Assembly: GCA_021202925.1 (NCBI GenBank)
Contig: JAJQCD010000014.1
Coordinates: forward strand, 62,001-126,000
DNA length: 64,000 nt
Direction of reading: 5' to 3'
Source: Clostridiales bacterium
GTDB lineage: Bacteria > Bacillota > Clostridia > Lachnospirales > Lachnospiraceae
Below the pieces are notes generated by a model that saw nothing but the letters and a program-made list of their open reading frames with translations, was not told where the DNA came from and did no database searches. Shown piece by piece: positions 14,766 to 32,454 of this stretch. A program made the translations under genes and the position numbers. The first letter of the stretch is position 1; every line of letters begins with the position of its first letter.

Positions 14766-15821
14766 TCATTTGCAATCCAGTATAAAAATATCCGCGCTTG
14801 TCCCAAGCTGCAGATAGGTGCCCGGCATGATATCGACCGTCTGTCCCTTTGGAAGTCGTCCCGCCTGCATATTGTAGGTCCCGAAGCTGGACAGATCCGT
14901 CACACGGAATTTCTGCCCGTCGAACTCCACCGTCAGATGCAGCCTGGAAACCTCCGGCGACTGAATGACCACGTTGCATTTCGACGCATCGCGTCCAATC
15001 CGGATGACCGCGCCGCGATCGACCGGAATATTCGCCCCGGTGAATTCTCCTTCCACACCGATCAGATATCCCTTCTTTTCATTCTGTGAAAGAACCGGAG
15101 ATGCACCCTTTGTCTCCCGTACCGTTGCTCGTTCCGGTATCGCAGGAGCGCTGTCCGCAGACACCGCCGCCCTGGGGGCCGATTCATATCCGGCAGCCGC
15201 TCCCTGCGGGGCGTCATACACTTCATGCCGCGCCGGAACGCGCCCTTCGAGCCGCTGCTCCTTGAGGGTCAGATAGAGTTCCGCGCTCGTCGCATGGATA
15301 TAAGGCAGCACCAGAAGCAGGCCGACACCGCACACAACTGCGCCGAGAAGAATCCATCCCAGGAAAGACAATCCCAGCACAAAAAGCGCCATCTTGTTGC
15401 CGTCCATCATTTCCTTGCTCATGCGGAAAATCTCTTTTCTGCTCTTCTCCGGATAGTCAACAGCCAGATACGGAACCATCGCATACTCGTAGGACTTGAT
15501 GATTCCCGGAATAAAGAACAGAAGCGACCACAGGAAGGTAAACAGGTTCCTGCAGAATATGATGCCGCAGCAACGCAGGAACTGGCCGCCGCTGAATCCA
15601 TGAAACAGTTCGCCTGCGCCCGCGTTTTCCTGTCTGCGCTCGCTGTTCAGGAAATAGCTGTACAGTCCGATTTCCAGCAAATATCCGACAAGGATATTAA
15701 GCGGCGGAACGATCGTTATCCCTGAAAGAAGGAAATAAATAATCAGTGTCAGTACCGCGCTCCAGTAATATTTTTTCAGGCTTTTCTTCGCCCTCGTTTT
15801 CAGTTCTGCCCTGGTCCACAT
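14766..15821 (-). CDS. DUF975-like membrane protein with C-terminal FHA domain
   Basis: MWTRAELKTRAKKSLKKYYWSAVLTLIIYFLLSG (DUF975-like start); C-terminal IRIGRDASKCNVVIQSPEVSRLHLTVEFDGQKFRVTDLSSFGTYNMQAGRLPKG (FHA). Confidence 0.85.
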   Translation of the reverse strand: MWTRAELKTRAKKSLKKYYWSAVLTLIIYFLLSGITIVPPLNILVGYLLEIGLYSYFLNSERRQENAGAGELFHGFSGGQFLRCCGIIFCRNLFTFLWSLLFFIPGIIKSYEYAMVPYLAVDYPEKSRKEIFRMSKEMMDGNKMALFVLGLSFLGWILLGAVVCGVGLLLVLPYIHATSAELYLTLKEQRLEGRVPARHEVYDAPQGAAAGYESAPRAAVSADSAPAIPERATVRETKGASPVLSQNEKKGYLIGVEGEFTGANIPVDRGAVIRIGRDASKCNVVIQSPEVSRLHLTVEFDGQKFRVTDLSSFGTYNMQAGRLPKGQTVDIMPGTYLQLGTSADIFILDCK

Positions 15822-15903
15822 GTTTCATACTCCTTACCATTCTTTTTTCCGTGCGGCTGCCGCACAACAGCCGGCAGCCACACCCGTGATTTACCACTTA
15901 CAA

Positions 15904-16755
15904 TCAGTCGTCGTAATCGTAATCATCTTCGTCATAATCATCCCAGTAATCGTCGCTGTCATAATATCCGCGTTCCACATCATAGATATACTCTTTGATC
16001 TGCTCTTCGGTTGCGTTCAACGCGGAAAGCTGCCGGGTCACCTTATCCTCCCAGTTGGCCCGCTTGGTCGCGCGTCTGGTCGAGGAGGTTGCGGTCAGGA
16101 CATTCTCCTTATATTGCTCATACAGATCTTCCATTTTCTCTTCGATCCGATCCTGATTGTCCTGCTGGACTTCCTCCTGCAGCTGCGACATTGCGTCACC
16201 GCCCAGATAAGGTCTCCAGGACTCATCGGTCGCGGACGTCGCCGCATTCTTGAAATCGATCGACCCATCGTTGTTGAAACGCAGCATCAGACCATCCTTC
16301 TCAATGATCTCGCCGGTTCGCAGACTGCCGTCCGCCTGTGCCTGGTACATGCTTCCGCCAACGGTGAAATTTGTGCTGTACTTCATCGCCCCGGTACTTT
16401 CATCCAGGTAATAACGTTTGCCGCCCAGATCCAAGAATCCGGTCTTCATGGCGCCGCTGGCATCCAGATAATAATACTCATCATTCACCAGCACCCAGCC
16501 GGTCTGCATCACACCGGACGCATCGGAATAATACCAGACTCCGTCCTTCTGATACCAGCTGGAAGCCGCCATATGTCCGGTCCCATCAAAGAAATACCAG
16601 GCTCCGTCGATCTGCATAAACTGATCGCTGGCGCGGCTGCCGCTATCATTCAGATAGTAATAACCAGCTTCATCCTGCTCCCAGCCCGCATAGACCGGAA
16701 AAACTGCCGCCAGTGTCATAACCGCTGCTGCGACTCCAATACTCCACTTCTTCAT
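15904..16755 (-). CDS. Secreted cell-wall/glucan-binding YG-repeat protein with acidic tail
   Basis: Signal peptide MKKWSIGVAAAVMTLAAVFPVYAG; repeats GAWYFFDGTGHMAASSWYQKDGVWYYSDASGVMQTGWV...YYYLDASGAMKTGF; tail DSDDYWDDYDEDDYDYDD. Confidence 0.85.
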   Translation of the reverse strand: MKKWSIGVAAAVMTLAAVFPVYAGWEQDEAGYYYLNDSGSRASDQFMQIDGAWYFFDGTGHMAASSWYQKDGVWYYSDASGVMQTGWVLVNDEYYYLDASGAMKTGFLDLGGKRYYLDESTGAMKYSTNFTVGGSMYQAQADGSLRTGEIIEKDGLMLRFNNDGSIDFKNAATSATDESWRPYLGGDAMSQLQEEVQQDNQDRIEEKMEDLYEQYKENVLTATSSTRRATKRANWEDKVTRQLSALNATEEQIKEYIYDVERGYYDSDDYWDDYDEDDYDYDD

Positions 16756-16988
16756 GTTTGTTCCTCCTTTTCTTTTTCCTGCCAGCGCGGGATTTCCCGC
16801 ACGGCATTATGATCCTATACCTACCATCCTTCAATACCGCCGAACAGATCATCGTCGAGCGAACCAGCTGTCGTCTCCGGCGCTGCGGTAGTTTCCGGCG
16901 CTGCCGTCGTTTCCGGCGCCGCTGTCGTCGGTGCGGCCGTCGTTGGCGCTGCGGTGGTTTCCGGCACCGGTGCCTGAGTCGCAGCCGG

Positions 16989-19016
16989 CTATGTCTGTGC
17001 CTGAGTTGTCTCTAAAGCCGCCGTCGTCTGTTTCGCCGGATCCTTGCCCTTACTGATGACCAGGTCCACCGAATCGCCCTTTTTCACTTCCGCTCCGTTT
17101 TCCACACTCTGGGAAATAACCTTTCCGGAAGCAATCGAGTCACTATACTCCTCCGTCACTCCGCCTACAGTAAGACCAAGGGCTTCGATTGTTTCTGTTG
17201 CCTCCTCAAGTGACATCAGTTGTACATTCTCCATATAAATCTTTTCCTGGCCAATGCTGACCGTGACCGTCACATAGGTATCGCGATTCACCATCTCTCC
17301 TGCGGCCGGAGACTGCGCCAGAATCGTGCCTTCCGGTTCGTCGCTGTTTTCTTCTACCCAGTTAACCTTCAGGCCAACCGCCTCCAGGGCAGGTTCCACG
17401 TCCCCGCGGTTCAGTGCCATCAGTTCCGGAACCTCTACCTGCACGCTCTCGTCGCCTTGCTGACTCTCCTCGTTCATGCAGATCGTCAGAACAATCTCCG
17501 CGCTCAAGGCCACATTATCGTTCTGTTCTTCACTGACACTCAGAACCGAATCGTAGAGTCCTGGTTCGTCGCTTTCCTTAATCACAACATTCCGAAAACC
17601 GGCTTCTTCCAGCTTCTCCATCGCTTCCTCACGCATCAGCCCGACAATGGACGGGAAAACCGCTTTCTCCTGTCCCTTACTGATATACACCATGACCTCG
17701 GTTCCCTGCGCGATCACGCTGTTGGCCGGCACTTCCTGATACGAAATCAGATTCTCCGGGATTTCCTCGGAATATTCCATCCGGTCTCTCGACATGCCCA
17801 GACGCTCATCTGCCAGAATGGTCTCCGCCTCATCTGCGTCCTCGTTGACCACATTCGGCATACGAACCATATCCGCTTCCATCTGTGCCGTAGACGAACT
17901 CATATGCAGCCGGATCACGCCGGTCATCAGAAGGACAATCACTGCGGCTACCGCCAGAATCACGGCGCCACTCAAAGCGAACACCCACTTCGGAATCCTG
18001 CCCACATCGTTTTTATCCTTCGTGATCGTGCGTTCCTTTACTTCTGCCGCGGACAGTTCTGTCAGGAACTCGCCCATGGTCTGCGTCCGATCCTGCGTCT
18101 TGATATGGAGCGCATTCATCAGCGCGGTTTCTGTCGGCTTGCTCAGTTTGACGCCCAGCCGGGACGGCTTCTTCAGTTCATCCTTGACGCTGCGCTCCAT
18201 CGCATCCTCCGGCGTCACCTCCGTAAGCATTTTATAGAGCGTAGCCGCCAACGCGTACACGTCTGTCCAGGTCCCCTGATCGCCCCGGCTGCGATACTGC
18301 TCCTCCGGGGCATAACCCGGTTTGATGATTACAGACAGACTCTTGCTGTGCTTTGTGGTCGCGTAACGGGCCGCGCCAAAATCCAGGAGCTTGACCCGCA
18401 GGTTGTCAGGCTCATCCGGGTTCAACACATAGATATTGTCCGGCGCAATGTCCCGGTGAAGGATTCCCTCCTTATGTACGCTCTCCATGGCGGAAGCGAT
18501 CTGCTTCGTGACATGAATCGCCTGCTCCGGCGTCATCTTTCCCTTCTCCTTCAGGTAATCCTTCAATGTCATACCTTCCAGAAATTCCATAACAATATAG
18601 GAAGTATTGTTTGCCTCAAAGCAATCGTAAATCTGGACGATCCCCGGTACGGATTCAAAACGGGCCAGCCGCCTGGCTTCCTCAATCGTCTTCACCAAGC
18701 CCTCCCGGTACTGCTCCTCCCGTTCTCCGGAATAGACCGTCACCGGCAGCTGCGTCGGCATCCGCGTGGCAAACTCTCCCGGCAGGTATTCCTTGATCGC
18801 AACCTTACGTTGCATCAGGTAATCCCACCCAACATATGTGATTCCAAATCCGCCAAAGCCCAGTACCTTTCCGACGATATACTTCTCTTTGAGTACCGTA
18901 CCGGGCGGAATGTGGTACGACTGCTCCGCCGGTGTATCAAAGGCATACCCGCAATAAGGACAGACTTCAAAGCGATCGTCGTATTCCTTCATGCAGCCCA
19001 TGCATAATCTGTTCAT
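16989..19016 (-). CDS. Zinc-ribbon Ser/Thr protein kinase with PASTA domains; ends at an in-frame TAG, frame open on to 16821
   Basis: N-terminal CMGCMKEYDDRFEVCPYCG; GFGGFGITYVGWD, VAIKEY, HRDIAPDN, LLDFGAARY; TM segment VFALSGAVILAVAAVIVLLMTG; PASTA repeats MPNVVNEDADEAETIL... Codons after TAG remain open to TAG at 16821-16823. Confidence 0.9.
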   Translation of the reverse strand: MNRLCMGCMKEYDDRFEVCPYCGYAFDTPAEQSYHIPPGTVLKEKYIVGKVLGFGGFGITYVGWDYLMQRKVAIKEYLPGEFATRMPTQLPVTVYSGEREEQYREGLVKTIEEARRLARFESVPGIVQIYDCFEANNTSYIVMEFLEGMTLKDYLKEKGKMTPEQAIHVTKQIASAMESVHKEGILHRDIAPDNIYVLNPDEPDNLRVKLLDFGAARYATTKHSKSLSVIIKPGYAPEEQYRSRGDQGTWTDVYALAATLYKMLTEVTPEDAMERSVKDELKKPSRLGVKLSKPTETALMNALHIKTQDRTQTMGEFLTELSAAEVKERTITKDKNDVGRIPKWVFALSGAVILAVAAVIVLLMTGVIRLHMSSSTAQMEADMVRMPNVVNEDADEAETILADERLGMSRDRMEYSEEIPENLISYQEVPANSVIAQGTEVMVYISKGQEKAVFPSIVGLMREEAMEKLEEAGFRNVVIKESDEPGLYDSVLSVSEEQNDNVALSAEIVLTICMNEESQQGDESVQVEVPELMALNRGDVEPALEAVGLKVNWVEENSDEPEGTILAQSPAAGEMVNRDTYVTVTVSIGQEKIYMENVQLMSLEEATETIEALGLTVGGVTEEYSDSIASGKVISQSVENGAEVKKGDSVDLVISKGKDPAKQTTAALETTQAQT

Positions 19017-19037: not shown

Positions 19038-19776
19038 TTATGACTGGCCGTTCTCTTTCTTCTCCAGGTCTTCCCAGGCAAATTCCTTCGTACAGCAGGG
19101 AATGATCATCAGATCTACCTTGCCAAGTGAAATGATGTCGTTGGCTTTCAGCACAACATGATCCAGAACCACATCGTCATTGACATAAAACAGCTCTCTG
19201 GCATCTCCCGCCTGCGCAAGGAACATCCTCTCCTTTGGCTCATAAACAATCACCGCATGACGGTCTCTGGAAACCGAACGCTCCCCTTCCAGACAGATAT
19301 CCATATCGCGGCCGCGGCCAATAAAATTCCGCCCGCTTTTCAGCGTAAAGCTCTGGCCAAAATACTCGCCTTTCGTGCAGACCAGCCATCCCACCACCGG
19401 CTCTGCCTTCACCGGCGTGGCAATCGCTTCCTCATAATAACGACGCGTCGGTACATCGTCATCCGGCAAAGACTGCACCGGAGCGGCCGCGGACGGTTGT
19501 GGACGAACCGGTTCCATCGGAAGTACCTCGACTGGTTCCTGTCTCTTCTGAGTCACATCGGAATCGGTCGCAATATGCTGCACTGTAACCGCATCATCTT
19601 CAGCAACCCCACCTCCGCTGTAAAGAATCCATTGTTACATTCTCCGATCCATTTACCGGCCGCATGGCTACGGTCGTGGAATCATCAGACGCCCCGGCCG
19701 CCGCACCGCAATGTGGGCAGGACGCGTAACGATCTCCGTCATAGAAATGACCTTTTTCACACCTTTTCAAATTCAT
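19038..19776 (-). pseudogene. Zinc-ribbon + FHA protein, split by a one-base frameshift
   Basis: N-terminal frame 19776-19600: MNLKRCEKGHFYDGDRYASCPHCGAAAGASDDSTTVAMRPVNGSENVTMDSLQRRWGC*. FHA frame 19583-19038: ...VGWLVCTKGEYFGQSFTLKSGRNFIGRGRDMDICLEGERSVSRDRHAVI. Colinear with the intact homologue at 30271-30882. Confidence 0.85.
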
Positions 19777-19879: not shown

Positions 19880-22123
19880 CTATGACATTGGGCTGTCTAC
19901 GGATTCCGGACTTTCTACGGCTGCCGATGTCTCTGTAATCTCCGACGCCTCAATCGTGAACGGTAACACCGTTGCCTCTGATACGGCGGTCGTCTCCGGC
20001 ACTATCGTCGTTTCCGGTTCCGCCATTGTCTCTGGCGCCACCGTCGTTTCCGGCGCCACCGTCGTTTCCGGCGCTGCGGTTGTCTCTGGCGCTGCCGTTG
20101 TCTCCGGCGCTGCCGTTGTCTCCGGCGCTGCCGTTGTCTCTGGCGCTGCCGTTGTAACCGGCGCCGCGGTTGTGGCGGTTGTGGTCGATTTCTTCACAGA
20201 AGACGTCTGCTTCGCCGGATTCTTTCCTTTGCTGACCGTCAGATCCACAGAATCGCCGCGCAAAGCCGCCTCATCCTGTGCAATACTCTGCGTAATCACC
20301 TTTCCGGATGCAACCGAGTCGCTGTATGTTTCCGTCACGGTTCCGACTGCAAGTCCCAGCGTCTCGATCTCCTCTGTCGCCTCCTCCAGCGACATCAGCA
20401 ACACGTTTTTCATATAGATTTTTTCCGGGCCGATACTGACTGTCACGGTCACGTAGGTATCCCGGTTCACAATCTCGTCCGCCTTCGGTTCCTGCGCCAG
20501 TACACGTCCCTCTGGCTCATCACTGTACTCTTCCACCGGATTCAGCTTCAGGCCTTTCTTTTCCAATGCGGCTCCCGCTTCTGCCCGATCCATGCCGATC
20601 AGGTCAGGAGCCTTCACCTGCTGGCTGTCATCGCCATCCAGACTTGCCTCATTCATACAGACCGTAACCATAATCTCTGTGCCCAACGCCACGTTGGCGC
20701 CCTCCATCTGACTGATCTCCAGAATGTGATTGTAAACGCCTTCGTCCATGGATTCCTTCATCTGAATATTCTCAAAACCGGCCTCCGCAAGCCGCTCCAG
20801 TCCTTCCTCACGCGCCAGTCCCCGCACCCGGGGAATCACACCTTTTTCCGAACCTTTGCTGATATGGACGACAATCTCCGTCCCCGCATCGAGCAGAGTC
20901 CCTACGGGCTTTTCCTGATAAGAAATCACATTTTCCCCAACTTCATCCGAATATTCCATCCGCTCTCTCGACATTTCCAGGCCAAGATCCTTCAATGCTT
21001 CTTCTGCTTCATCCGCATCCCGGTTCACGACATTGATCATGCGGACAGTTCCCTTTTGCAGTCCGGTCTCACCGGTCTCTTTCAGAGAAACACGCAGGAA
21101 ACCAACTCCTATCACAATCATCAGCACCAGCAATACTCCTGCAATCGCCGCCGCCGCGATAACCGCTCCTTTCGGAATCCCTAACGGTTTCCGCAGATCC
21201 CGCCTTCTGTTGCGGTTCCTGGAAAAAGACTCCTCTGCTTCTCGCGTCACCCGGCCATTTAATTCCTCCTGAAACCGACGCATGGACTTGGTCTCATGAG
21301 AAAGTGCATGCTTCATGGCCGTCATCACATTCCTGGAAAGTCCCGTCTGGCTCAACAGTAGTTCCTGCTCCAGCCTGTCACCTTCGAGAATCTCCCGCCC
21401 GCTCACCAGGCAGCAGAACAGCTTTGCCAGGCCATATACATCTGTTTCCGGTCCCGGATTATCATAATTTACAATTCCCGGTTCCCCGCAGACATAGCGC
21501 CACGAACCAAAATCCTTCAGAATCAGCCGTCCGTCTCCCGTATACCAGAATGCCTCCGGATCAAGCATTCCATGGCTGACTCCAAGTTCATGGCATTTTT
21601 CCACGGCCTCCCAGGCCTTCCTCAGCAAAGTCAGCGCCTCGCTTTCACTCAGGCGTCCGTCGGCTAATCTGTCCCCCAGCGTCTGCAGTTCCCGTGCCTC
21701 CGTAATTGCATAGGCCGTCCGGTTCTCCTCAAAGCAGGCGCAATAGGTTATCACATCCGGCTCCCGGTACGCGCGAATCAGTTCCCGGCTCTCATGGATA
21801 AACGCCTGCAGCCCTTCCTGAAATCGTTCCTGCCTTGATTCATAAATGGTCATCTGCGGATTCCCGCCACGCGAGGCACAATATCTGGGGAAATATTCCT
21901 GAATCCGTACCTGACGGTCAAAGATGGCATCCCAGCCCCGGTAACAGATATCCACATCACGCACCCGGATCACGGTTCCCACAATATAGCGGCTGTGCAG
22001 GATCGTTCCCGGCATCAGCCCCATATCTGCCTCCCGTGTCACACCGTGAACGTATCCGCAATAAGGACATTTGTCTTCATATTCCTCGGCGTATTCCTTC
22101 ATACAGTTCAGACAACGCCTCAT
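19880..22123 (-). CDS. Zinc-ribbon PASTA-domain pseudokinase with Thr/Pro repeat tail
   Basis: Start MRRCLNCMKEYAEEYEDKCPYCGY; degenerate kinase motifs (VRIQEY, SHGMLDPEAF, LKDFGSWRY); TM VIAAAAIAGVLLVLMIVIGVGFL; PASTA repeats. Confidence 0.85.
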   Translation of the reverse strand: MRRCLNCMKEYAEEYEDKCPYCGYVHGVTREADMGLMPGTILHSRYIVGTVIRVRDVDICYRGWDAIFDRQVRIQEYFPRYCASRGGNPQMTIYESRQERFQEGLQAFIHESRELIRAYREPDVITYCACFEENRTAYAITEARELQTLGDRLADGRLSESEALTLLRKAWEAVEKCHELGVSHGMLDPEAFWYTGDGRLILKDFGSWRYVCGEPGIVNYDNPGPETDVYGLAKLFCCLVSGREILEGDRLEQELLLSQTGLSRNVMTAMKHALSHETKSMRRFQEELNGRVTREAEESFSRNRNRRRDLRKPLGIPKGAVIAAAAIAGVLLVLMIVIGVGFLRVSLKETGETGLQKGTVRMINVVNRDADEAEEALKDLGLEMSRERMEYSDEVGENVISYQEKPVGTLLDAGTEIVVHISKGSEKGVIPRVRGLAREEGLERLAEAGFENIQMKESMDEGVYNHILEISQMEGANVALGTEIMVTVCMNEASLDGDDSQQVKAPDLIGMDRAEAGAALEKKGLKLNPVEEYSDEPEGRVLAQEPKADEIVNRDTYVTVTVSIGPEKIYMKNVLLMSLEEATEEIETLGLAVGTVTETYSDSVASGKVITQSIAQDEAALRGDSVDLTVSKGKNPAKQTSSVKKSTTTATTAAPVTTAAPETTAAPETTAAPETTAAPETTAAPETTVAPETTVAPETMAEPETTIVPETTAVSEATVLPFTIEASEITETSAAVESPESVDSPMS
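19972..20175 (-). repeat. In-frame 18-bp-unit repeat tract encoding (A)APETT hexapeptides
   Basis: Protein TTAAPETTAAPETTAAPETTAAPETTVAPETTVAPETMAEPETT; DNA repeats of GGCGCTGCCGTTGTCTCC and variants on the plus strand. Confidence 0.85.
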
Positions 22124-24243
22124 ACGTCCTGATCCTCTCCATACTCCATCGTCAGCCAATCCAGAAGACCGGCCAGTTCCTCAAACTCATTGTTGCTCTC
22201 GACATAAGTTTTCATCATATTTTTGTTGAGGGGCAACCCATTCCCGCCCTGAAGGTTATACACATCCTGCGCGGTCTCTCCCAGGAGATAATATACCAGA
22301 CTATCCGCCGCTTCCTTGGCATCCCCCTCCAGGCTGCCGTCAATACTCCAGAGAGAGGTGAACTGTCCCCGAATCTTCCCGTCCTTCCAGAGACTCTCCA
22401 TCACTTCCATCCGGTAAATGCCGCCCAGGCTGGCCCGGATAACCTCATAGTCATCCGTCGTTCCCAGATAATACGCTGTCCGGCGTTCCAGGAACGGTTC
22501 GTAACCCTTTTCTCCGGTCTCCGGCTCCTCAAACGCTTCCTGCCCGGCAGCGTCCGCAAACGCCGTACGATACATCTCGCGCACTTCACTGCTCACACAA
22601 TAGCTGACGTTTCCTTCTGAATCAATCAGCTGGCTTATGTTCGTTACCTCGTCTGCCCGGAAATCCTCCGGGATCTGGTTCGTATTGACATAGAGCACCG
22701 GTGCGCGGAACGAAATCGGAATCTGTTTCTTCTCCTCCCCGAAATATGCCTGGAATCCCTTATCCTTCATAAAGTAATAATTCTTCTCATCCAACGTATC
22801 ATATGTGGTATCCAGCGTCCCCAGCCTTGCCCAAAGCTCTGCATCAGCCGCCGTGATCGATGTGGTTTCAAAGACGGCCGGCAGCGTACTTGCCTCCATC
22901 AGCTGTCCGGCATATTCCTCTGACGAATCTCCGGAGATCAGTTCCAGCGTGACGCTGGAAAATCTTTCCTGATATTCTTCTGCCATCTTCCCGAGCATTT
23001 CCTCCGATGTGATCCGTTCCACATGTTTCGTTTCACCCGTTTCCGTTCCTATCGCGGACGCTGCCTCAATCTCAGAAAGTTTCTCTGCATTGATGTCCGG
23101 CATCTCAACACGAATCGCCGCTGCAATCCGATAGAGCGCCTGCTGTTTCCCCCGATACACCCAGAGACATCCTGCTCCCGCCGCGAGCACCACCAGACAG
23201 ATTCCTGCGATACCGATTCCACGCCGGAACTTTCTGCGTTTCAGTTCCGCATCGACCGTAAGTATTTTCGTCTGATTCTGAATGGCCTCCTTGAACTGAT
23301 CCACATTGCGGAAACGCAGCTCCTGGTTCAGGGCCATTGCCCTCATGATACTGGTATTCAGATACTCCGGTAGGTCCGGCACAAAAGTCACAGGCGGTGG
23401 GAGCTTATCATCCACAACCCGGTTCACGGACTCCTCCGGCATCCTTCCGGTGATCGACCGGTAAAGCACTGCACCGACCGCATAAATATCTGTCCACGGT
23501 CCCTGACGGCTCCGGCTCCGATACTGCTCCGGCGGCGCATAACCTGGCTTCAGGATAATCGAGAGCGTCTTTTCTTCCTCTCCGCTCGAAAAACGCGCCG
23601 CGCCGAAGTCAATCAGCTTCACCCGGTATCGATCGGATCCCGGTTCCTCCGGCACCAGAAAAATATTATCCGGACTCACATCACGGTGAATGATGCCCAC
23701 CTTGTGAATCTCTTTCAACGCATCCAGCACAGACATGACGACATGAACCGCCTCGTCTACCTCCACCTTTCCGCCATGCTGCTTAATATATTCCTTATAG
23801 GACATGCCGTCCAGAAACTCCATAGCAATGTATGCCGTATTGTTCTCCTCGAAGAACTCATACACATTTACGATATTCGGATGCGTGTTAAAGCGCGCCA
23901 TATTCCTCGCTTCCGCCAGGAACCGTTCTTTGCCGCCGCGAAACTCCTCTGCCCGGTTTCCGGAATAGACGATCACTTCCTTCTCTCCCGGCACACGATT
24001 GACGATTCCATTGGGATAATATTCCTTGACTGCTACCTTCTTCTCCAGAACCGTATCCCATGCACGGTAGGTAATGCCAAATCCACCGAATCCGACCGTC
24101 GTACCGACCAGATAGCGATCCTTCAGCTTCACCCCCGGATACAGATGATACGCTTCCTTAGGCGGACTCCCCGGTATAAAACCACACCAGGGACAGACCC
24201 CATAGGCTTCGTCAAACGTTTTCATGCAGTTTAAGCAAATCAT
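22120..24243 (-). CDS. Zinc-ribbon Ser/Thr protein kinase with extracytoplasmic solute-binding-protein-like domain
   Basis: CLNCMKTFDEAYGVCPWCGF; GFGGFGITYRAWD, VAVKEY, HRDVSPDN, LIDFGAARF; TM IGIAGICLVVLAAGAGCLWVY; ectodomain with SBP-like segments (LPAVFETTSI..., NLQGGNGLPLNKNMMKTYVESN). Confidence 0.87.
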   Translation of the reverse strand: MICLNCMKTFDEAYGVCPWCGFIPGSPPKEAYHLYPGVKLKDRYLVGTTVGFGGFGITYRAWDTVLEKKVAVKEYYPNGIVNRVPGEKEVIVYSGNRAEEFRGGKERFLAEARNMARFNTHPNIVNVYEFFEENNTAYIAMEFLDGMSYKEYIKQHGGKVEVDEAVHVVMSVLDALKEIHKVGIIHRDVSPDNIFLVPEEPGSDRYRVKLIDFGAARFSSGEEEKTLSIILKPGYAPPEQYRSRSRQGPWTDIYAVGAVLYRSITGRMPEESVNRVVDDKLPPPVTFVPDLPEYLNTSIMRAMALNQELRFRNVDQFKEAIQNQTKILTVDAELKRRKFRRGIGIAGICLVVLAAGAGCLWVYRGKQQALYRIAAAIRVEMPDINAEKLSEIEAASAIGTETGETKHVERITSEEMLGKMAEEYQERFSSVTLELISGDSSEEYAGQLMEASTLPAVFETTSITAADAELWARLGTLDTTYDTLDEKNYYFMKDKGFQAYFGEEKKQIPISFRAPVLYVNTNQIPEDFRADEVTNISQLIDSEGNVSYCVSSEVREMYRTAFADAAGQEAFEEPETGEKGYEPFLERRTAYYLGTTDDYEVIRASLGGIYRMEVMESLWKDGKIRGQFTSLWSIDGSLEGDAKEAADSLVYYLLGETAQDVYNLQGGNGLPLNKNMMKTYVESNNEFEELAGLLDWLTMEYGEDQDV

Positions 24244-25051
24244 CCCTGCCGTCCTCCTGTTTTCCCAAATATCGGATCAGAACCGCCGTCGTATTGTCCT
24301 GTCCTCTCACTCTGCGGTCCATAGCCATATCCGTCAGCCGATCCGCTGCGATTGCCATATCAATGTCATTATCCGTTGCCATCGCCCAGACCTGGCTCTC
24401 ATTCAGGCTTTTGTAAATTCCATCGCTGCAGAGTACCACAATATCGCCCGGCTCCAGCTTCAGAGGAGTCCGGTTGGAATCGATATACTGAACATGATTC
24501 ATGCCGAGAAAACTGATCAGCGCGTCCGCCTGCGGCGTCGCCGATTCCCGGTCAAATTCCTCCCTGCTGATCACGCCGGCATCCAGCCTTTGCTTTAACA
24601 GCAGACGATAATTGTGTTCCACATTCAGTGAACGAATCCGGTCGCCACGAATCAGATAAATCATGCTGTCTCCCACCGACACCCAGTACATCTGATCGCC
24701 CTGAAAGCTCGCGGCCACCAGTGTCGTCCCGGCCCCCAGCGCTTTTCCCCTTTCATTGCGCAACGCTGTCACCGCCTGATCCATCCTGCCAACTTCCCCG
24801 GTCAGGAAATCCGACATCGGAAGATTTCCCGACCTGCGGCGAAAATCCTGAATCATCTGCTGAATGGCCGTCTGGCTGGCCCGTTCTCCACCTTCGAGAC
24901 CGCCCATGCCATCACAGACGACCGCCAGAATCTGATCGGAGTCAATGCAATAATAAGCAGCGTCCTGCTGATATTTTCTGGTTCCCAGGATGCTGCTTGC
25001 CCCTACATCATAAGTGGGATTCCAGCCACGCTTTTCCTCAACGATATTCAT
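24212..25051 (-). CDS. PP2C-family Ser/Thr protein phosphatase
   Basis: VVCDGMGGLEGGERAS, VSVGDSMIYLIRGDRI, VVLCSDGIYKSL, RGQDNTTAVLIRY. Confidence 0.92.
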   Translation of the reverse strand: MNIVEEKRGWNPTYDVGASSILGTRKYQQDAAYYCIDSDQILAVVCDGMGGLEGGERASQTAIQQMIQDFRRRSGNLPMSDFLTGEVGRMDQAVTALRNERGKALGAGTTLVAASFQGDQMYWVSVGDSMIYLIRGDRIRSLNVEHNYRLLLKQRLDAGVISREEFDRESATPQADALISFLGMNHVQYIDSNRTPLKLEPGDIVVLCSDGIYKSLNESQVWAMATDNDIDMAIAADRLTDMAMDRRVRGQDNTTAVLIRYLGKQEDGRDDLLKLHENV

Positions 25052-26555
25052 ATCTCACTCCCAATTCAATGACGCATGACGCACTGGCCAGGGCAAACCT
25101 GGCCGGCGGGCTGACAAAGCAATCCATTCCCCGTTTCAGGCGTTGCCCATTGTAATACACACCGTTTACCGACAGGTCACGGATGCAGAAACGCCGCGTC
25201 TGCTCCACCCAGGTAATCAGGCAATGAACCCGGCTGATATCATTCGGTCTCTCCACACAGATATTTGCCTCTGTCTTCGACCGCCCCAGCTTCAGCGTCT
25301 CGTTTCGGGGGATATTCCAGTTTTTCCCCTTTTCCGGTCCCAGGACGACGGACACATAAGGAAGCGCCACCTTCTGCGGCTGCCTGGCTGGCGCCTGCGG
25401 CCTCGCCGGGGTAACCTTCGCCGGGGTAATCCTCGTCGGAGTAACCGGCCTGACCGGAATTCCCAGTCTCTGCGGCGGCGCAGACCGATTCTGCACCGCT
25501 GGACGCACCTGCGCTGCCGGTCTCGCCTGTGCTGTTGGTCTCACCTGTGCTGCCGGTCTCGCAACCGGCATTTCCATTCCTGCAGCGATTTCCGCGATAA
25601 ACCGTTGCATGGTTTTTGTCCGCTGATTGGCCTTGAGCGCCAGCGCCCGATCCACTGCATCCGAAATCCCCGCCGACACCCCGACATTCATTTCCTTCAG
25701 AGAGACATAGTCCTGTCCCGCCAGGCGATCCGGAGCCGTCGGAATATATTTTCCGGTCAGCGCGTAATAGTAAGTTCCTGCCAGCGAATATACATCCGTG
25801 AAACTTCCCTGCACCATTTCCGTCGAATACTGCTCCGGCGGTGCGAAGCATGGCTTCAAAACGACAGACAATCCCGACTGCATGCCGGTCTGCGTCTGTT
25901 TTGCACTGCCAAAATCAATCAGTTTCACCTGATCCTGCCTCGTGATAAAAATATTTTCCGGTGTGATATCCCGGTGAATAATCTTCGTTTTTGTATGAAT
26001 CACATCCATCGAGACGGCAACCTGAAGAACAATATCTGTAGCTTTCTGCACCGGAAGCCGCCCCTTCGTCGCACGGACAATCTGCTGGAGATTCGCTCCG
26101 TCCAGATATTCCATGACAAAATACGCCGTATTGTTCTCCTGAAACACATCGGTGATATCCACAACCGACGGAATATTCTCCAGACGGCTTAAGATACGGG
26201 TTTCATCAAAGAACCGCTTCAGTCCGGCCCGGTAAGGCAGCTCCACCTGTTCCGACAAAACCTCCAGCATCCGTCCGTGCTCGCTGCGCCTGCAGATTTC
26301 ATTCGGCGCGTATTCCTTCACACAGCAAATCGCCTGCTTCGCATAGTCAAACGCCTTATAGGTAATTCCAAATCCGCCCTCTCCCAGCGTTCTCCCCAGG
26401 TAATACCTTTGCTGCAGGACCGTACCCGGAGGAAGTGCCCTCTGATAGACCTTCCCCTCAAATCGTGTCTGATATCCACACTTCGCACAGCATCCGTTCA
26501 CGAACCCTGGTGCAAAACAATTCGGGCAAAAATCTGTCTGCATTCCGCTCACCAC
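25038..26555 (-). CDS. Zinc-ribbon Ser/Thr protein kinase with C-terminal FHA domain
   Basis: CPNCFAPGFVNGCCAKCGY; GEGGFGITYKAFD, CVKEYAPNE, HRDITPENIF, LIDFGSAK; C-terminal LKLGRSKTEANICVERPNDISRVHCLI...LSVNGVYYNGQRL. Confidence 0.9.
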   Translation of the reverse strand: MVSGMQTDFCPNCFAPGFVNGCCAKCGYQTRFEGKVYQRALPPGTVLQQRYYLGRTLGEGGFGITYKAFDYAKQAICCVKEYAPNEICRRSEHGRMLEVLSEQVELPYRAGLKRFFDETRILSRLENIPSVVDITDVFQENNTAYFVMEYLDGANLQQIVRATKGRLPVQKATDIVLQVAVSMDVIHTKTKIIHRDITPENIFITRQDQVKLIDFGSAKQTQTGMQSGLSVVLKPCFAPPEQYSTEMVQGSFTDVYSLAGTYYYALTGKYIPTAPDRLAGQDYVSLKEMNVGVSAGISDAVDRALALKANQRTKTMQRFIAEIAAGMEMPVARPAAQVRPTAQARPAAQVRPAVQNRSAPPQRLGIPVRPVTPTRITPAKVTPARPQAPARQPQKVALPYVSVVLGPEKGKNWNIPRNETLKLGRSKTEANICVERPNDISRVHCLITWVEQTRRFCIRDLSVNGVYYNGQRLKRGMDCFVSPPARFALASASCVIELGVRYEYR

Positions 26556-28270
26556 CTGACTGTGATTTTCAAGGTACCGGCCTCGATCCGGTCTCCCGGC
26601 ATCAGCGGATGCCGGCTGTGAATCTCCTTCCCATTCACCTGCGTTCCGTTCAGAGAATTCAGATCAGAAATAGATACATGCTCCTTTTCCCGTTCCAGAC
26701 AGAAATGTCGCCGGGAAAGCTCCCTGTCATTCAGACAGATGTCGCAGGAAGGCGAACGCCCTACCAGCAGCCTGCGGTCAAATTCCCAGACCGCTTCCGA
26801 TTCCCCGCCTTCTGCAGAAAGAATCCGGACATCCATCTGGATCCGGTCGTCCTGCGTCTGTCCGGACGCCGTTTCCTCCTGCGCCTTTTTCTTTCTCGAA
26901 GTGACAGCTACCACGATCGCCACGACAATCAGCGCTGCAAAAATCAGAAACAGTATGCCGCTTATATCCTGCGGCATCCCCGGAATCAGCCGCTCGGGCT
27001 CTGGTTCCGGCTCCGGCCTTGTCTCCGCGCTGTCGATCTCAATTGTCAAGCTGCTTTCCGCAAGTGGATTTTTCTCCATCGAGACGTCCGTCAGATTGGT
27101 CAATGTCAGCTCATAGGTTCCGTTCCAGACTGGTTTGTCTACTGTCAGCTTTACCGCAGCGGCCAGATCTTCATCCACGGCCACCGAAACCACACCCAGG
27201 TCCGCCAGTCCATCCTCTCCGCTGTAACGAACCTGATAATTCGCCGCTGCATCCATTCCATACAACGGTTCACTGAACACGAGACGGATCGCCTGTCCTC
27301 CGGCATATTGCCACTCCACCAGAGACGGCGCCTCTTCATCCGGGATCCAGTGATCGTTTACTGCATCCTTCCGGAGCACCACTCCGTCCGCAAGTTTCAG
27401 ACTGAATGTTTCCGTCTGATAACTCACCAGATTCGTCGCCGCCCGATACCGTGCGCAGACATCGGAATCCAGCAATTCACAGAGTCCCGTCAGCAGATTA
27501 TCCTCTCCCGTCTTCTCAAACACAGTCAAGGTTCCACCCGAAGACCTTGCGAATGTTCCAAGACCGTCCAGGTACTCCTTCTTCGTATCCGCCGGACCGA
27601 ATGCGTAAACCGGAATGGAACGATCCTGAAGCCGTGTCAGGGCCTCGTCAGCCTGTGTCTTTCCCACGGTAAAATCTTCTCCATCCGTCAGCACGACAAA
27701 AACCGTCCGGCTCCGTTCGGTCTCTCTCTCCGCATCCGCGGCCGCCAGGTATATGGCCTCAAACAGCAGCGTCTCCTGATTGTCATTATCAAGCGCATCC
27801 AGCACCGCAGCCATTTCCTCCGGCGTCTGTTCTCCGTCTGTCACTCGCGTCACTTCATCGCCAAAGGCATACAAAACCAGACGGTCTTCATTCCCCAAAG
27901 TATCCTGCAGGGCCTGAATCGACGCTTTCATCCGGGCAAAACTACTGTCTGAGATCGAAGCAGAAATATCGACCAGCACATAATACCCAATGCCATTACC
28001 GGTCTCCCCAAACACCTGCGGGGTCTCCTGCAGCACCAGCTTCTCCTGACCCAGCCAGGCCTCACCTCCCTGCATTTCCTCCGGAGTAACCCCGCTGCCA
28101 TACACGACGACCTCCGGCATATTCAGATACACCTGCCCGATCCTTCGTTCTCCGGCCGCCGTAGCGGATTCCGTTCCCGTCTCTGTCGCCCGGGCCGTCC
28201 CCGCAGTCAGTAAAACCAGCAGCAGCACAAACGCAGCCAGTCCGTTCCGGTATCTCCCGCTCTTTCTCAT
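26549..28270 (-). CDS. VWA-domain membrane protein with C-terminal FHA domain
   Basis: Start MRKSGRYRNGLAAFVLLLVLLTAGTARA; VWA core YYVLVDISASISDSSFARMK, VFVVLTDGEDFTVG; TM ISGILFLIFAALIVVAIVVAV; FHA LLVGRSPSCDICLNDRELSRRHF...LNSLNGTQVNGK. Confidence 0.88.
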   Translation of the reverse strand: MRKSGRYRNGLAAFVLLLVLLTAGTARATETGTESATAAGERRIGQVYLNMPEVVVYGSGVTPEEMQGGEAWLGQEKLVLQETPQVFGETGNGIGYYVLVDISASISDSSFARMKASIQALQDTLGNEDRLVLYAFGDEVTRVTDGEQTPEEMAAVLDALDNDNQETLLFEAIYLAAADAERETERSRTVFVVLTDGEDFTVGKTQADEALTRLQDRSIPVYAFGPADTKKEYLDGLGTFARSSGGTLTVFEKTGEDNLLTGLCELLDSDVCARYRAATNLVSYQTETFSLKLADGVVLRKDAVNDHWIPDEEAPSLVEWQYAGGQAIRLVFSEPLYGMDAAANYQVRYSGEDGLADLGVVSVAVDEDLAAAVKLTVDKPVWNGTYELTLTNLTDVSMEKNPLAESSLTIEIDSAETRPEPEPEPERLIPGMPQDISGILFLIFAALIVVAIVVAVTSRKKKAQEETASGQTQDDRIQMDVRILSAEGGESEAVWEFDRRLLVGRSPSCDICLNDRELSRRHFCLEREKEHVSISDLNSLNGTQVNGKEIHSRHPLMPGDRIEAGTLKITVRW

Positions 28271-28286
28271 ACTTGTCTCCTTTATC

Positions 28287-28348
28287 CGCCCCTTGCCTGA
28301 CGGCAATTTCCTTCATTCGCCCCTTGCCTGACGGCAATTTCCTTCATT
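28287..28348 (-). repeat. Tandem duplication of a 31-bp unit upstream of the VWA-FHA gene
   Basis: CGCCCCTTGCCTGACGGCAATTTCCTTCATT occurs back-to-back at 28287-28317 and 28318-28348. Confidence 0.9.
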
Positions 28349-28408: not shown

Positions 28409-29158
28409 TCACGAATCCAGCCACACTGCCACAGCAGAAAAATTATCCATATTCCGGTTTCTGCCATTTTTGCGCACAATGGCGGCCATCTGTCTCACCC
28501 AGTCTTCCGGATCCTTCGCATGCTTCAGACAGTGCATCATCTTCTTCTCATCGATCAATTCCCAGAATCCGTCTGTACACAGCAGGAAAGCCTGTTTCCC
28601 GGTTCGTTCTTTCGGCGGCTCGATCTGATACCTCGGATCATCCCAGTCCGCCCCCAGTACCCGCAACAGCCGGTTGCGATCCGGATGATTGCGAATCTGC
28701 TTTTCCCGAATCTGTCCGGCGGCCACCAACATCTGGGGAACACTGTGATCTAGCGTGCGCCCCGCCAGCTTTCCATTCTCAAACCAGTACAGGCGGCTGT
28801 CTCCGATATGTCCCCAGCGAACCTGCCCTGCCTCCACATAGAGCACAACTAATGTTGTCTTCATGTCTCTGGCGGAAAGGTCTTCCCGCTGCTTCTTTAT
28901 GATTGCGTCCTGGGCACTCTGAAACGCCCTCCCCAGGCTCTCCTCGCCGCCTCCAAGTTCCGCAAAACACATAATGGCGGACTCGACCGCAAGCTGGGAC
29001 GCCAGCTCACCTTTTCCGTGTCCGCCAAGACCGTCGGCGAGAACAAAACAGTACTCCTGCTCATTCTGATACATACCGACATTATCCTCATTGTTTCCCC
29101 GATCTCCCGGATCACTGAACAAATAACAGGGAGGCATCTCTTCCACCCACCTTTCCAC
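28409..29158 (-). CDS. PP2C-family Ser/Thr protein phosphatase
   Basis: SDPGDRGNNEDNVGMY, VLADGLGGHGKGELAS, GHIGDSRLYWFENGK, LLCTDGFWELID, NMDNFSAVAVW. Confidence 0.9.
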   Translation of the reverse strand: MERWVEEMPPCYLFSDPGDRGNNEDNVGMYQNEQEYCFVLADGLGGHGKGELASQLAVESAIMCFAELGGGEESLGRAFQSAQDAIIKKQREDLSARDMKTTLVVLYVEAGQVRWGHIGDSRLYWFENGKLAGRTLDHSVPQMLVAAGQIREKQIRNHPDRNRLLRVLGADWDDPRYQIEPPKERTGKQAFLLCTDGFWELIDEKKMMHCLKHAKDPEDWVRQMAAIVRKNGRNRNMDNFSAVAVWLDS

Positions 29159-29264
29159 CTTCTTCGCCGACAGCCAGCCATCCGCCCGCGGAAGGGGAAA
29201 ACGCCCCTCCCGCGCACATGGTCAACCGCCTTCGGTCAGACCCCATTGCCTGACGCCATCCGCA

Positions 29265-30155
29265 TCAGTTCAGCCGGAATCCGTTTCGTCTACTGCTTCC
29301 CAGATAAATCACCGTACCTCTGGAAAGCTGCTTCGGCTGCCCGCTCTCCAGGCGGCTTCCGCTCTCCAGATAAGTACCGTTGCTCGAATAATCCGTCACA
29401 ACATACTGATTCGAACGACCATCAAAACGAACCACGCAATGCTTGCGGCTGACATCCGTCGCAGACTGGTCAAAGACAATATTCGCTTCCTGGGTAGAAC
29501 GGCCAAAGACCAGCTCCGAGCCGTCAGCCAGGTCAAACGTCGCATCCTTGTACATACCGACCGTACCCACGATTACGCCCCGGTTCTGCACTACATTGGT
29601 ATCGCCCGGCTTCTTCTCCTGCTCGACAAATTTTCCAAAACGAATGGAATTGGAAAACGCGATCAGCATACCAAACACCTTCGCCACCGGCCAGAATGCC
29701 GGTATAATATTCATCCACGCCGTATTCGGATTGAAACCAAACAATTCATAAAACTTCTGATAATACAGGAACGTGAATACCATGTTAGCAAGAACGTAGA
29801 CGATCAAAAGCACCGTGATAATCGCCATATTCCCTGTCAGCTTATACAGAAGCGTCAGAATCAGCCCCACCGACACCCATGTAACCAGAGAATTGCCAAA
29901 GAAAAAGATGTACCAGACCGGACAGCGTGCAATCTTCATCTGATAAATCTGACGGGCGACCGGCACAAACGGCATAAAGTCTCCCTCTACCTTCGCCTTC
30001 CGTCCCGTACACATCAAAGCATACCCATGGACAAAATAAGTAGCCAGCACAAATGCGATGCCCAGTACAGCAATCAGCATACTGATTCCCTGAATCATAC
30101 CTGCAATTCCGTCAATCAATTGTTCCAACTCATAAATATCACTCAAACCTGACAT
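29265..30155 (-). CDS. Multi-pass membrane protein with C-terminal FHA domain
   Basis: Start MSGLSDIYELEQLIDG; several TM segments; FHA ELVFGRSTQEANIVFDQSATDVSRKHCVVRF...YSSNGTYLESGSRL. Confidence 0.85.
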   Translation of the reverse strand: MSGLSDIYELEQLIDGIAGMIQGISMLIAVLGIAFVLATYFVHGYALMCTGRKAKVEGDFMPFVPVARQIYQMKIARCPVWYIFFFGNSLVTWVSVGLILTLLYKLTGNMAIITVLLIVYVLANMVFTFLYYQKFYELFGFNPNTAWMNIIPAFWPVAKVFGMLIAFSNSIRFGKFVEQEKKPGDTNVVQNRGVIVGTVGMYKDATFDLADGSELVFGRSTQEANIVFDQSATDVSRKHCVVRFDGRSNQYVVTDYSSNGTYLESGSRLESGQPKQLSRGTVIYLGSSRRNGFRLN

Positions 30156-30270
30156 ATTTCTGCCTCCCTCACCTGTTTGTATATAGATCCCCCTGAGCAT
30201 GGCCAAAAAACGGTCACATGCCCTGTCGCATCATCCTGAAACCGGATCCGATGCTGGTCTTTCTTCCGGA

Positions 30271-30882
30271 TCAGTCCAGTTCCCAGTTGAACGCCTCGTC
30301 ACAGCACGGGATCAGCATCAGCTGGACATCCCCAATCTGCATCACATCATTCTTCTTCATCTGAACCGGCGAAAGTACAACATTCCCATTGATATAGAAC
30401 AGTTCTCTCGACTCGCCCGGCTGCGCGATGAAAATATTCTTCCTCGGCTCATGAATAATGGTCGCGTGCCGCTCTCTGGATACACTGTTCTCTCCGGCCA
30501 GGCAGATATCCATCTGCGAGCCGCGGCCAATGAAGTTCCGTCCGCTCTTCAAACGGAAATCCTGCCCGTAAAATTTCCCTTTCGTGCAAACCAGCCAGCC
30601 GACTGTCGGAGCTGCCGACACCGCGCCGCTCTCTACCGCTTTCTTACTCTGGTAAATGCTGATCGTCTTATTGTCATCCTCATCGACCGGAGCAACGCCG
30701 CCCATGCCCGCACTGCTGTTGTACGAGTCCAGATCCAGCGTCTCCCTGTCCCCGCTTCCCGGGGCATCCTGAAACGGCACCGTTCTGCCTTCATCCGGAC
30801 TGACACCGCCTCCACAGTGCGGACAGGATGAATAAATATCACTGTCATAAAAATGTCCGTTGCTGCATTTCGTTAACTTCAT
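30271..30882 (-). CDS. Zinc-ribbon + FHA protein
   Basis: Start MKLTKCSNGHFYDSDIYSSCPHCGGG; FHA SGRNFIGRGSQMDICLAGENSVSRERHATII. Confidence 0.88.
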   Translation of the reverse strand: MKLTKCSNGHFYDSDIYSSCPHCGGGVSPDEGRTVPFQDAPGSGDRETLDLDSYNSSAGMGGVAPVDEDDNKTISIYQSKKAVESGAVSAAPTVGWLVCTKGKFYGQDFRLKSGRNFIGRGSQMDICLAGENSVSRERHATIIHEPRKNIFIAQPGESRELFYINGNVVLSPVQMKKNDVMQIGDVQLMLIPCCDEAFNWELD

Positions 30883-30964
30883 TTCTGATGTTCTCCTTTC
30901 CCCGTCATCCACTCCCGCCGGCCTTATCTTCCTCTGCCGTGTTTCCTGCATGACTGCTGCGGTC

Positions 30965-31040
30965 ATTATATCAAAAATTATCTGCCCATGCCCCCGTCAT
31001 ACAAAAACAGCCCTTTTTTATACAAAAACAGCCCTTTTCT
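30965..31040 (-). promoter_or_regulatory. Candidate activator-dependent promoter: perfect TATAAT with two 21-bp-phased direct repeats upstream
   Basis: Minus-strand TATAAT at 30965-30970; plus-strand ATACAAAAACAGCCCTTTT repeated starting at 30999 and 31020 (period 21 bp). Confidence 0.65.
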
Positions 31041-31776
31041 ATGTCTCTGATTCCTCGGAAGATTCTCTGGCCATAAAATCGGTATAGCACTTTCTCGTAA
31101 TCGGATACCGGGATTTGCTGATGGGAATCCTCTCCCCGCTCTCCACAACAATCCATCTTCCCTCAATCTGCCGGACCCGACGCATATTGACGACGTAACT
31201 CTTGTGGCATTGAATGAAATCCTCCGTCAGCTGTTCTTTCAGCTTCTGTAACCGCCCATAACAGTCATAGCGGCCGCTTCTCGTCCGGATCTCCACCAGA
31301 TGCCCCACACTCTCCAGATATACAACCTCACGGAAATCAATCGACTGAATCCTGCCCCTGCGCCGAATCAGCAACCCACACCCCGGCTCAGGCTCCATTT
31401 CTCTGAGCAGACGGGCAAAGCACTCCGTCACTGCTCTCTGCTCCAGTGGTTTGACCAGAAATCCGCCCGGCAAAATCTCCCGGATAAAAATCTGTTCCAC
31501 AAAACGCTGCGGACACTCCGCCATATAAACCATCTTTGCAAAAGGGCACTGATCCCGGATTTCCCGAACCATTTTCACCCAGTTTCTCCCGGGATCCCAC
31601 TCCAGGCTGATCAGAATCACCTGATAAGGCACATTTCCCAGTTCCAGAATTTTTATCAGCGACGACGGATCCGGATACCAGTCACATTGCCTGATTTCCT
31701 GGATCTGTCCGGCCACATGTTCAATCTGCCGCCGGACAGACACATCCGCGTCACATATTGCTACCTTTATCATCAC
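31039..31776 (-). CDS. LytTR-family DNA-binding regulator with degenerate receiver domain
   Basis: N-terminal receiver-like VAICDADVSVRRQIEHVA...YQVILISLEWDPGRN; C-terminal LytTR VVYLESVGHLVEIRTRSGRYDCYGRLQKLKEQLTEDFIQCHKSYVVNMRRV. Confidence 0.87.
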   Translation of the reverse strand: MMIKVAICDADVSVRRQIEHVAGQIQEIRQCDWYPDPSSLIKILELGNVPYQVILISLEWDPGRNWVKMVREIRDQCPFAKMVYMAECPQRFVEQIFIREILPGGFLVKPLEQRAVTECFARLLREMEPEPGCGLLIRRRGRIQSIDFREVVYLESVGHLVEIRTRSGRYDCYGRLQKLKEQLTEDFIQCHKSYVVNMRRVRQIEGRWIVVESGERIPISKSRYPITRKCYTDFMARESSEESET

Positions 31777-31809
31777 TCAAAGCTTTTCCTTCCTCATTAC
31801 CCCGTTTTG

Positions 31810-32454
31810 TCACTCCAGAATCCCTTCCAGGAACGCCTTTATCTTCTCCTTACTAAACAGATCCAGGACAGAAAATTCTATATACTCATCGTCTTCCTCT
31901 TCAGACGCTTCCTCTTCCCCCGGTACAATCACCCGATCGGCCTCATCCCGGTCAATCAATCTGGTGTCCAGTACCATATACCACGTTCCGTCATCCTTTT
32001 CCATATTGATCACATTACTCTCGCCGGAATTCGCTTCATCAAAGAACACAGTCGCCTTATCGCCCTTGATTCGTGTCTCCGTCACCTGAAAATCGACCTC
32101 GGGATATCCCATCTCATTCATCTGATCTCCCAGCATTCCCTGGAACAACGGCATGACATTAAGCAGATCCTCCGCGCTGATACCCAGGTCGACTCCCGAA
32201 ACCTTTCCGGCAATCTTCATCACGATGTCCATACCGGACGTCAGCGCGTCGACCGTATCCTCATCCATACAATCCATCATTCCCTGCACATCCATCGCGT
32301 TCACTGCATCCTCAAACGCTTCGATCGTATCCTCTGGCATGGCCTCCTTCGTCATAGAAACCGACAGACTACAGCCCGTTCCCAACAACAGGAACGACGA
32401 CGCCAGCCCCACCAGAAAAGGCCGACCAAACTTTGTCTTTTTCAATACCCGCAC
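31810..32454 (-). CDS. Lipoprotein of unknown function
   Basis: MRVLKKTKFGRPFLVGLASSFLLLGTGCSLSVS lipobox; body resembles DUF5105/DUF4878-like lipoproteins (family not certain). Confidence 0.7.
   Translation of the reverse strand: MRVLKKTKFGRPFLVGLASSFLLLGTGCSLSVSMTKEAMPEDTIEAFEDAVNAMDVQGMMDCMDEDTVDALTSGMDIVMKIAGKVSGVDLGISAEDLLNVMPLFQGMLGDQMNEMGYPEVDFQVTETRIKGDKATVFFDEANSGESNVINMEKDDGTWYMVLDTRLIDRDEADRVIVPGEEEASEEEDDEYIEFSVLDLFSKEKIKAFLEGILE

Follow-up and report, generated by a model that had tools for sequence, protein, structure and literature searches.

The window analysed here, a stretch of 64,000 nucleotides at positions 62001-126000 of contig C39 of a Lachnospiraceae genome (G000; 3.17 Mb in 39 contigs, rated 100% complete), contains an 18-kb island of genes for serine/threonine (Ser/Thr) kinases, PP2C phosphatases, and FHA domain proteins. 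As revealed by a Pfam scan of the open reading frames (ORFs) of the window, the island comprises 14 genes, all located on the minus strand, which span positions 14766-32454. Four consecutive gene junctions overlap, and the remaining intergenic gaps measure ~20-230 bp. Pfam supports every gene that the initial annotation had named in this interval with the exception of the lipoprotein, for which no match was obtained. The list of genes was correct, although the accompanying tally entered the kinase-FHA protein twice, once among the kinases and once among the FHA proteins. The genes are given below (TM, transmembrane segment; MIDAS, metal ion-dependent adhesion site; dN/dS, ratio of nonsynonymous to synonymous substitution rates; L numbers denote related loci).

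14766-15821, minus strand: DUF975 membrane protein with a C-terminal FHA domain, distal end of the unit (Pfam DUF975 8.7e-26, FHA 2.3e-11); the orthologue in L109 is found at the same end
15904-16755, minus strand: secreted wall-binding protein with choline-binding/YG repeats (Pfam Choline_bind_1 1.3e-18)
16989-19016, minus strand: active Ser/Thr kinase with an N-terminal zinc-ribbon motif, TM, and PASTA repeats (Pfam Pkinase 2.4e-33, PASTA 1.5e-46; K/HRD/DFG intact; dN/dS 0.09)
19038-19776, minus strand: zinc-ribbon-FHA adaptor, frameshifted; the FHA part is ORF 19038-19583 (Pfam FHA 4.4e-7), the zinc-ribbon half lies in another frame
19880-22159, minus strand: pseudokinase with an N-terminal zinc-ribbon motif, TM, and PASTA repeats (Pfam PASTA 1e-44; VAIK Lys and HRD Asp lost; dN/dS 0.10-0.15)
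22120-24243, minus strand: active receptor kinase with a predicted MalE-like extracellular solute-binding domain (Pfam Pkinase 7.6e-36; ectodomain from profile and structure comparison)
24212-25051, minus strand: PP2C phosphatase 1 (Pfam PP2C_2 9.6e-16)
25038-26555, minus strand: soluble active kinase with an N-terminal zinc-ribbon motif and a C-terminal FHA domain (Pfam Pkinase 7.7e-35, FHA 1.8e-11; motifs intact)
26549-28306, minus strand: VWA-FHA protein with signal peptide, VWA (MIDAS DxSxS), TM, and FHA, topology predicted (Pfam VWA 2.2e-14, FHA 4.1e-18)
28409-29158, minus strand: PP2C phosphatase 2 (Pfam PP2C_2 6.6e-18; dN/dS 0.065)
29265-30206, minus strand: multi-TM membrane protein with a C-terminal FHA domain (Pfam FHA 3.7e-13)
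30271-30966, minus strand: zinc-ribbon-FHA adaptor, intact, the family marker for searches (Pfam FHA 5.2e-7; alignment A1)
31039-31776, minus strand: LytTR-domain regulator, here without an adjacent histidine kinase (Pfam LytTR 6.1e-20)
31810-32454, minus strand: small lipoprotein-like protein, proximal end of the unit (no Pfam match, called from sequence); orthologues lie beside the related islands L098, L099, and L148

The island holds six of the seven Pfam FHA domains of the whole genome, together with four of its eight Pkinase matches and two of its four PP2C_2 matches, a clustering well above chance. The seventh FHA domain belongs to a separate, apparently pilus-type locus, as read from its sequence. 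Its complement of three receptor kinases in the membrane (one being catalytically dead), a soluble kinase, two PP2Cs, and six FHA proteins would make the island an unusually dense phospho-signalling unit for a bacterium.

The Island Is a Conserved Unit in Clostridia

Orthologues of the lipoprotein and of the DUF975-FHA protein accompany related islands, and the flanking Shango, MATE, nitroreductase, HxlR, PotD, and SIS genes were found beside none of the related islands read. Hence, positions 14766-32454 are close to a natural unit, which is bordered by the lipoprotein/LytTR end and the DUF975-FHA end. Neither a tRNA nor a strong shift in G+C content (53.8% in the island and 52.5% in the left flank) signals an insertion. 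A promoter and terminator scan yielded 17 promoters, whereas 13.8 were expected.

To follow the gene set in other genomes, alignment A1 of the zinc-ribbon-FHA adaptor was used as search query. Matches were obtained in 59 of 396 sampled Lachnospiraceae genomes, and 7 of 298 other genomes of the same phylum passed a stricter threshold. A scan of 85,462 species genomes returned 280 loci, the best 80 of which were kept; these include Lachnospiraceae, Oscillospiraceae, Family XIII, Peptococcaceae, and one Coriobacteriales metagenome-assembled genome (MAG). Since most loci were read over ~10 kb on each side and many contigs are fragmentary, the counts are lower bounds. Among 89 loci read, the adaptor was present in 86, a related kinase in 81, a PP2C in 78, and a VWA-FHA protein in 71. 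Most of the best 80 loci share a core of zinc-ribbon-FHA adaptors, two PP2Cs, VWA-FHA, kinase-FHA, membrane-FHA, and receptor kinases. The recurrent order is PP2C2 - adaptor - VWA-FHA - kinase-FHA - PP2C1 - (adaptor, membrane-FHA) - MalE-kinase - PASTA kinases - adaptor - PASTA kinase - choline-binding protein, the latter directly following the last PASTA kinase in about ten relatives. Thus, the recovery of 280 related loci, the best 80 of which mostly carry the core and often in the same order, answers the question raised by the initial annotation as to whether the set is a coincidence: it is not. The block of about 14 genes occurs in many gut Clostridia. We define here a clostridial zinc-ribbon-FHA/PP2C/VWA-FHA/kinase-FHA operon, the core of which occurs in conserved order in other genera and is accompanied by a conserved PASTA pseudokinase. 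When compared with the nearest MAG (L097/L132), dN/dS ranged from 0.065 to 0.21 across the genes measured, as expected from coding sequences under purifying selection.

A Maintained Pseudokinase, a MalE-Like Sensor, and FHA Adaptors

The presence of three kinases with intact motifs and one pseudokinase was borne out, as K/HRD/DFG is kept in three of the proteins and the fourth reads Q/HGM/DFG. The VAIK lysine is missing from every clear orthologue of the pseudokinase, and the HRD aspartate from nearly all (one reads HGD). Together with the dN/dS of 0.10-0.15, these losses indicate that the dead kinase is a maintained pseudokinase receptor rather than a product of decay. A search of its cytoplasmic part for conserved threonines yielded a few such sites, none of which has a clear juxtamembrane FHA motif.

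The ectodomain of the kinase encoded at 22120-24243 has no Pfam match on its own. However, SBP_bac_8 matched 9 of 20 aligned orthologues and SBP_bac_1 likewise 9 of 20, and a profile of the ectodomain retrieved solute-binding proteins from the PDB (8ula, 1.3e-8). Moreover, an AlphaFold (AF2) model (predicted local distance difference test, pLDDT, 88) was matched by Foldseek to MalE1 (5.1e-10, TM-score 0.63). The predicted fold thus identifies a MalE-like solute-binding sensor. Envelope sensing had been ascribed to the PASTA domains; these are present, but they are not the sole sensor. In the relative L046 the LytTR regulator is followed by a GHKL kinase, whereas none is found beside the LytTR gene in the window.

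One of the two zinc-ribbon/FHA genes is indeed frameshifted, with the break in the linker between the zinc ribbon and the FHA domain, and its counterpart in the nearest relative L132 is intact. The VWA-FHA protein comprises a signal peptide, a VWA domain with DxSxS, a TM, and a C-terminal FHA domain, and relatives keep both the MIDAS and the FHA motifs. From this domain order the VWA domain, with its MIDAS, is probably extracellular and the FHA domain cytoplasmic. The lipoprotein yielded no useful match among solved structures.

Secretion Systems and Other Potential Outputs

In line with the initial annotation, no secretion apparatus is present at the island. With the EssC model TIGR03928, which may miss highly divergent ATPases of type VII secretion systems (T7SS), only a sub-cut-off FtsK/SpoIIIE-like match for an EssC/TsxC ATPase was obtained in the source genome. 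Moreover, this genome contains no PF06013 match for WXG100 and no match to a sheath-like query from Lachnospiraceae, the sheath query used here (the families of Gram-negative type VI secretion systems, T6SS, were not searched). An FHA-ABC protein is absent from the window, and none is apparent in the genome.

In related genomes, EssC-like ATPases adjoin the island in L129 and L153 only (2 of 49 island genomes searched for EssC), and WXG100s adjoin the core at one further locus, L052. A consistent flanking of a secretion locus, which would have spoken against a self-contained unit, was therefore not seen. EssC scored over the cut-off in 86 of 396 Lachnospiraceae genomes and in 10 of the 49 island genomes (p=1); for strong-island Lachnospiraceae genomes the ratio was 6/17 versus 90/379 (p=0.26). 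EssC is overrepresented in genomes with the broader, non-contractile family of adaptors (19/42 versus 77/354, p=0.002), probably because some members of this family, e.g., in L192, where zinc-ribbon-FHA/PP2C proteins are embedded in a T7SS locus, sit inside T7SS loci. A T7SS link therefore exists in the wider adaptor family, but it is not characteristic of this type of island. For the window genome we rejected the T7SS reading, given the lack of EssC over the cut-off, of WXG100, and of EssC enrichment in strong-island genomes. Nevertheless, a blanket claim that the set does not occur next to secretion systems would go too far, since related modules adjoin T7SS, FHA-ABC exporters, and a T6SS-like cluster.

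Sixteen related loci encode an FHA-FHA-ABC-ABC2 protein with the architecture of Rv1747, whole, split, or partial. In three of them it is inserted between the MalE-kinase and the pseudokinase (L129:5829-8150; L144:5208-7530, split; L153:6652-9003), which points to an exporter as the putative output in this lineage. Several loci are headed by a protein of >1000 residues ending in a TM and a basic tail, one of which has a Big_13 domain. The tail is a possible phosphorylated partner of the FHA proteins. Very large surface-type proteins with a single C-terminal TM and a short basic tail head the island in L125 (1-4152, with an Ig-like domain) as well as in L124, L139, L147-L150, L157, and L170, from rumen and other Clostridia. 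In Faecalicatena contorta, a subtilisin-family (S8) peptidase is encoded immediately upstream of the core (L118:224-3322).

In addition, a sheath-like protein of 727 residues is present in 20 of 396 Lachnospiraceae genomes (G172 among them), including one from the window's genus. Of the 20 loci read, 18 have it in a cluster with members of the same family of adaptors, and most of them also with PP2Cs.

L181:3579-20000 (also L182 and L197-L214): sheath-like cluster with the 727-residue sheath-like protein, two Hcp-like proteins of 142 residues, VWA, TM-FHA-like, zinc-ribbon-FHA, PP2C, PP2C-like/TPR, and weakly DnaK-like proteins

The AlphaFold model of the 727-residue protein has a pLDDT of 75, and its top five PDB matches with Foldseek are all contractile sheaths, namely T6SS VipA/VipB (5.8e-4 and 9.2e-4), an Anabaena contractile injection system, and phage P1. 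The product of an adjacent gene is weakly Hcp-like (TssD 0.0044). The adaptors of these clusters form one clade (0.98), separate from those of the islands. The cluster is possibly an undescribed contractile apparatus of Gram-positive Lachnospiraceae under phospho-control, the sheath match coming from one mid-confidence model; a literature search retrieved no account of a T6SS-like system in this family.

A Model for the Island and Its Alternatives

We favour, as the probable explanation, that the island is a conserved operon for Ser/Thr phospho-signalling at the Gram-positive envelope, with multiple inputs and with outputs that vary by lineage. The proposal of a self-contained envelope-sensing phosphorelay holds with respect to the conserved, self-contained unit; the term phosphorelay, which denotes His-Asp transfer, does not fit a Ser/Thr kinase/phosphatase network. 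In our model the PASTA kinases would read wall fragments, and the MalE-like kinase a soluble ligand, e.g., an oligosaccharide. The active kinases would then mark threonines by phosphorylation, both their own and those of the pseudokinase and of membrane partners. The pseudokinase may serve as a docking platform, as does the MurJ pseudokinase domain for FhaA (PMC6180346), and the two zinc-ribbon-FHA adaptors and the kinase-FHA protein would dock at phosphothreonines and amplify the signal. The docked proteins could recruit the island's own effectors, namely the membrane-FHA, DUF975-FHA, and VWA-FHA proteins, or gate them, upon which the extracellular VWA domain and the wall-binding protein would change state. 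The PP2Cs would reset the system, and the LytTR regulator would tune expression. In the source genome the output would most likely be the island's own FHA membrane proteins together with wall or envelope targets encoded elsewhere, whereas in relatives an FHA exporter (cf. Rv1747-PknF, PMC3908365), a T7SS (PMC11217815), or large surface proteins may take the place of the effectors.

Several points weigh against this model. We infer phosphorylation, ligands, topology, and output, and the loci, read over ~10 kb on either side and in many cases on short contigs, revealed no output gene shared by all of them. The frameshifted adaptor may indicate that the system is partly impaired, or may be an assembly error. 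In addition, the zinc-ribbon-FHA protein has SRERH instead of the usual S-x-x-H spacing, which renders its phosphothreonine binding uncertain.

Alternatively, the island could represent the phospho-control module, now detached, of either a T7SS (cf. T7SSc/e) or a T6SS-like contractile machine that was lost from the source genome or is too divergent there to be detected. The family members within the T7SS locus L192, the WXG100s or EssC-like ATPases next to L052, L129, and L153, the EssC enrichment of the broad adaptor set, and the components of published T7SS variants are consistent with such an origin, as is the conserved cluster with the sheath-like protein, although its adaptors are a separate clade. 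We regard it as unlikely, considering that strong-island genomes are not enriched for EssC and that purifying selection acts on the island genes in a genome devoid of EssC over the cut-off, WXG100, and a sheath relative. Direct control of peptidoglycan or wall synthesis by a second PrkC/PknB-like system, with kinases and pseudokinase bringing FHA adaptors to gate synthesis or flipping, appears quite improbable: in none of the relatives read was the unit seen to be linked to a wall-synthesis gene, and the canonical rlmN-PP2C-PASTA kinase-rsgA locus is separate in the source genome, even though the PASTA domains, the wall-binding repeat protein, the neighbouring PASTA kinase and choline-binding genes of relatives, and the parallel of pseudokinase and FHA adaptors to PknB-MurJ-FhaA would fit. 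A defence island against phages, composed of PD-T4-6/MADS-type kinases and the adjoining Shango set, was rejected as highly improbable. PADLOC matched a kinase to PD-T4-6 (6e-70), but such matches are generic to the kinase fold, with each of three different kinases matching dozens of models; the NCBIfam model MAD6 reached 126.6 against a cut-off of 460 bits, and Shango is unlinked to the related islands read.

Relation to Known Systems

PrkC, a housekeeping kinase, is the best-known case of Ser/Thr kinase signalling in Clostridia. With PrkC/PknB-PrpC the island has in common a Hanks kinase with a PASTA ectodomain and a PP2C partner; it differs by its extra kinases, the pseudokinase, and the FHA/VWA partners. 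Scores with the NCBIfam model PknB_PASTA were 316.5, 184.8, and 134.1 bits, all under the cut-off of 450. The order rlmN-prpC-prkC-rsgA is not present at the island, and a canonical PP2C-PASTA kinase pair with the expected rlmN/rsgA neighbours (names read from sequence) is located on contig C18, outside the window.

In mycobacteria, the PknB-phosphorylated pseudokinase domain of MurJ forms a complex with FhaA (PMC6180346). An active PASTA kinase, a pseudokinase on a membrane protein, and an FHA reader are shared features, whereas the pseudokinase of the island itself carries PASTA repeats, is not fused to MurJ, and is accompanied by many more FHA readers. The kinase PknF is encoded in one operon with the FHA-FHA-ABC-ABC2 exporter Rv1747 (PMC3908365), the architecture of which recurs in the 16 related loci but not in the window. 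The T7SS variants c-j contain kinase, PPM, FHA, and vWA components (PMC11217815), the same classes as the island, some relatives of which are T7SS-linked; the island differs in that its genome lacks WXG100 and EssC over the cut-off and in that its VWA domain is predicted to be extracellular on a TM-FHA protein, whereas that of T7SSc is cytoplasmic. The threonine phosphorylation pathway of T6SS (PpkA/PppA/Fha-TagH) follows the same kinase, PP2C, and FHA logic, but TagH scores at the island were 27-43 (cut-off 120), and no relative of the Lachnospiraceae sheath-like query was found in the genome. Finally, the GAP1-N2 conflict systems (PMC7159879) share the triad of zinc-ribbon kinase, PP2C, and VWA. 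They were reported from actinobacteria rather than Bacillota; no GTPase components were seen at the island, and its VWA domain resides on a TM-FHA protein.

The component classes thus have precedents in T6SS, T7SS, mycobacterial, and conflict systems (PMC7159879, PMC11217815), and our literature search found no description of this operon or gene set in Lachnospiraceae. It is conceivable, though doubtful, that PASTA pseudokinase, MalE-like kinase, VWA-TM-FHA, and zinc-ribbon-FHA proteins constitute a widespread undescribed clostridial transmembrane module, a plug-in controller of FHA-ABC exporters, T7SS, and T6SS-like apparatus, which here would be machine-less and act inside-out via its own VWA and wall-binding proteins. 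Related controllers with and without an exporter, a T7SS, or a contractile machine offer a tractable comparison to separate control from output parts.

Neighbouring Genes and a Second Kinase Cluster

On one side the island is adjoined by genes for a SIS-type sugar isomerase and a polyamine-type ABC importer (potABCD-like; 9493-14525, minus strand), which are not conserved near related islands. On the other side, the plus strand encodes a Shango-type set at 35384-40608, consisting of SngA (TerB_N/TerB_C), SngB (BrxC/D ATPase; PADLOC 4.7e-193), and a downstream helicase. Elsewhere in the genome, contig C34 (L178:6785-17122) harbours a second cluster, devoid of FHA, with two kinases, a PP2C, and two choline-binding-repeat proteins.

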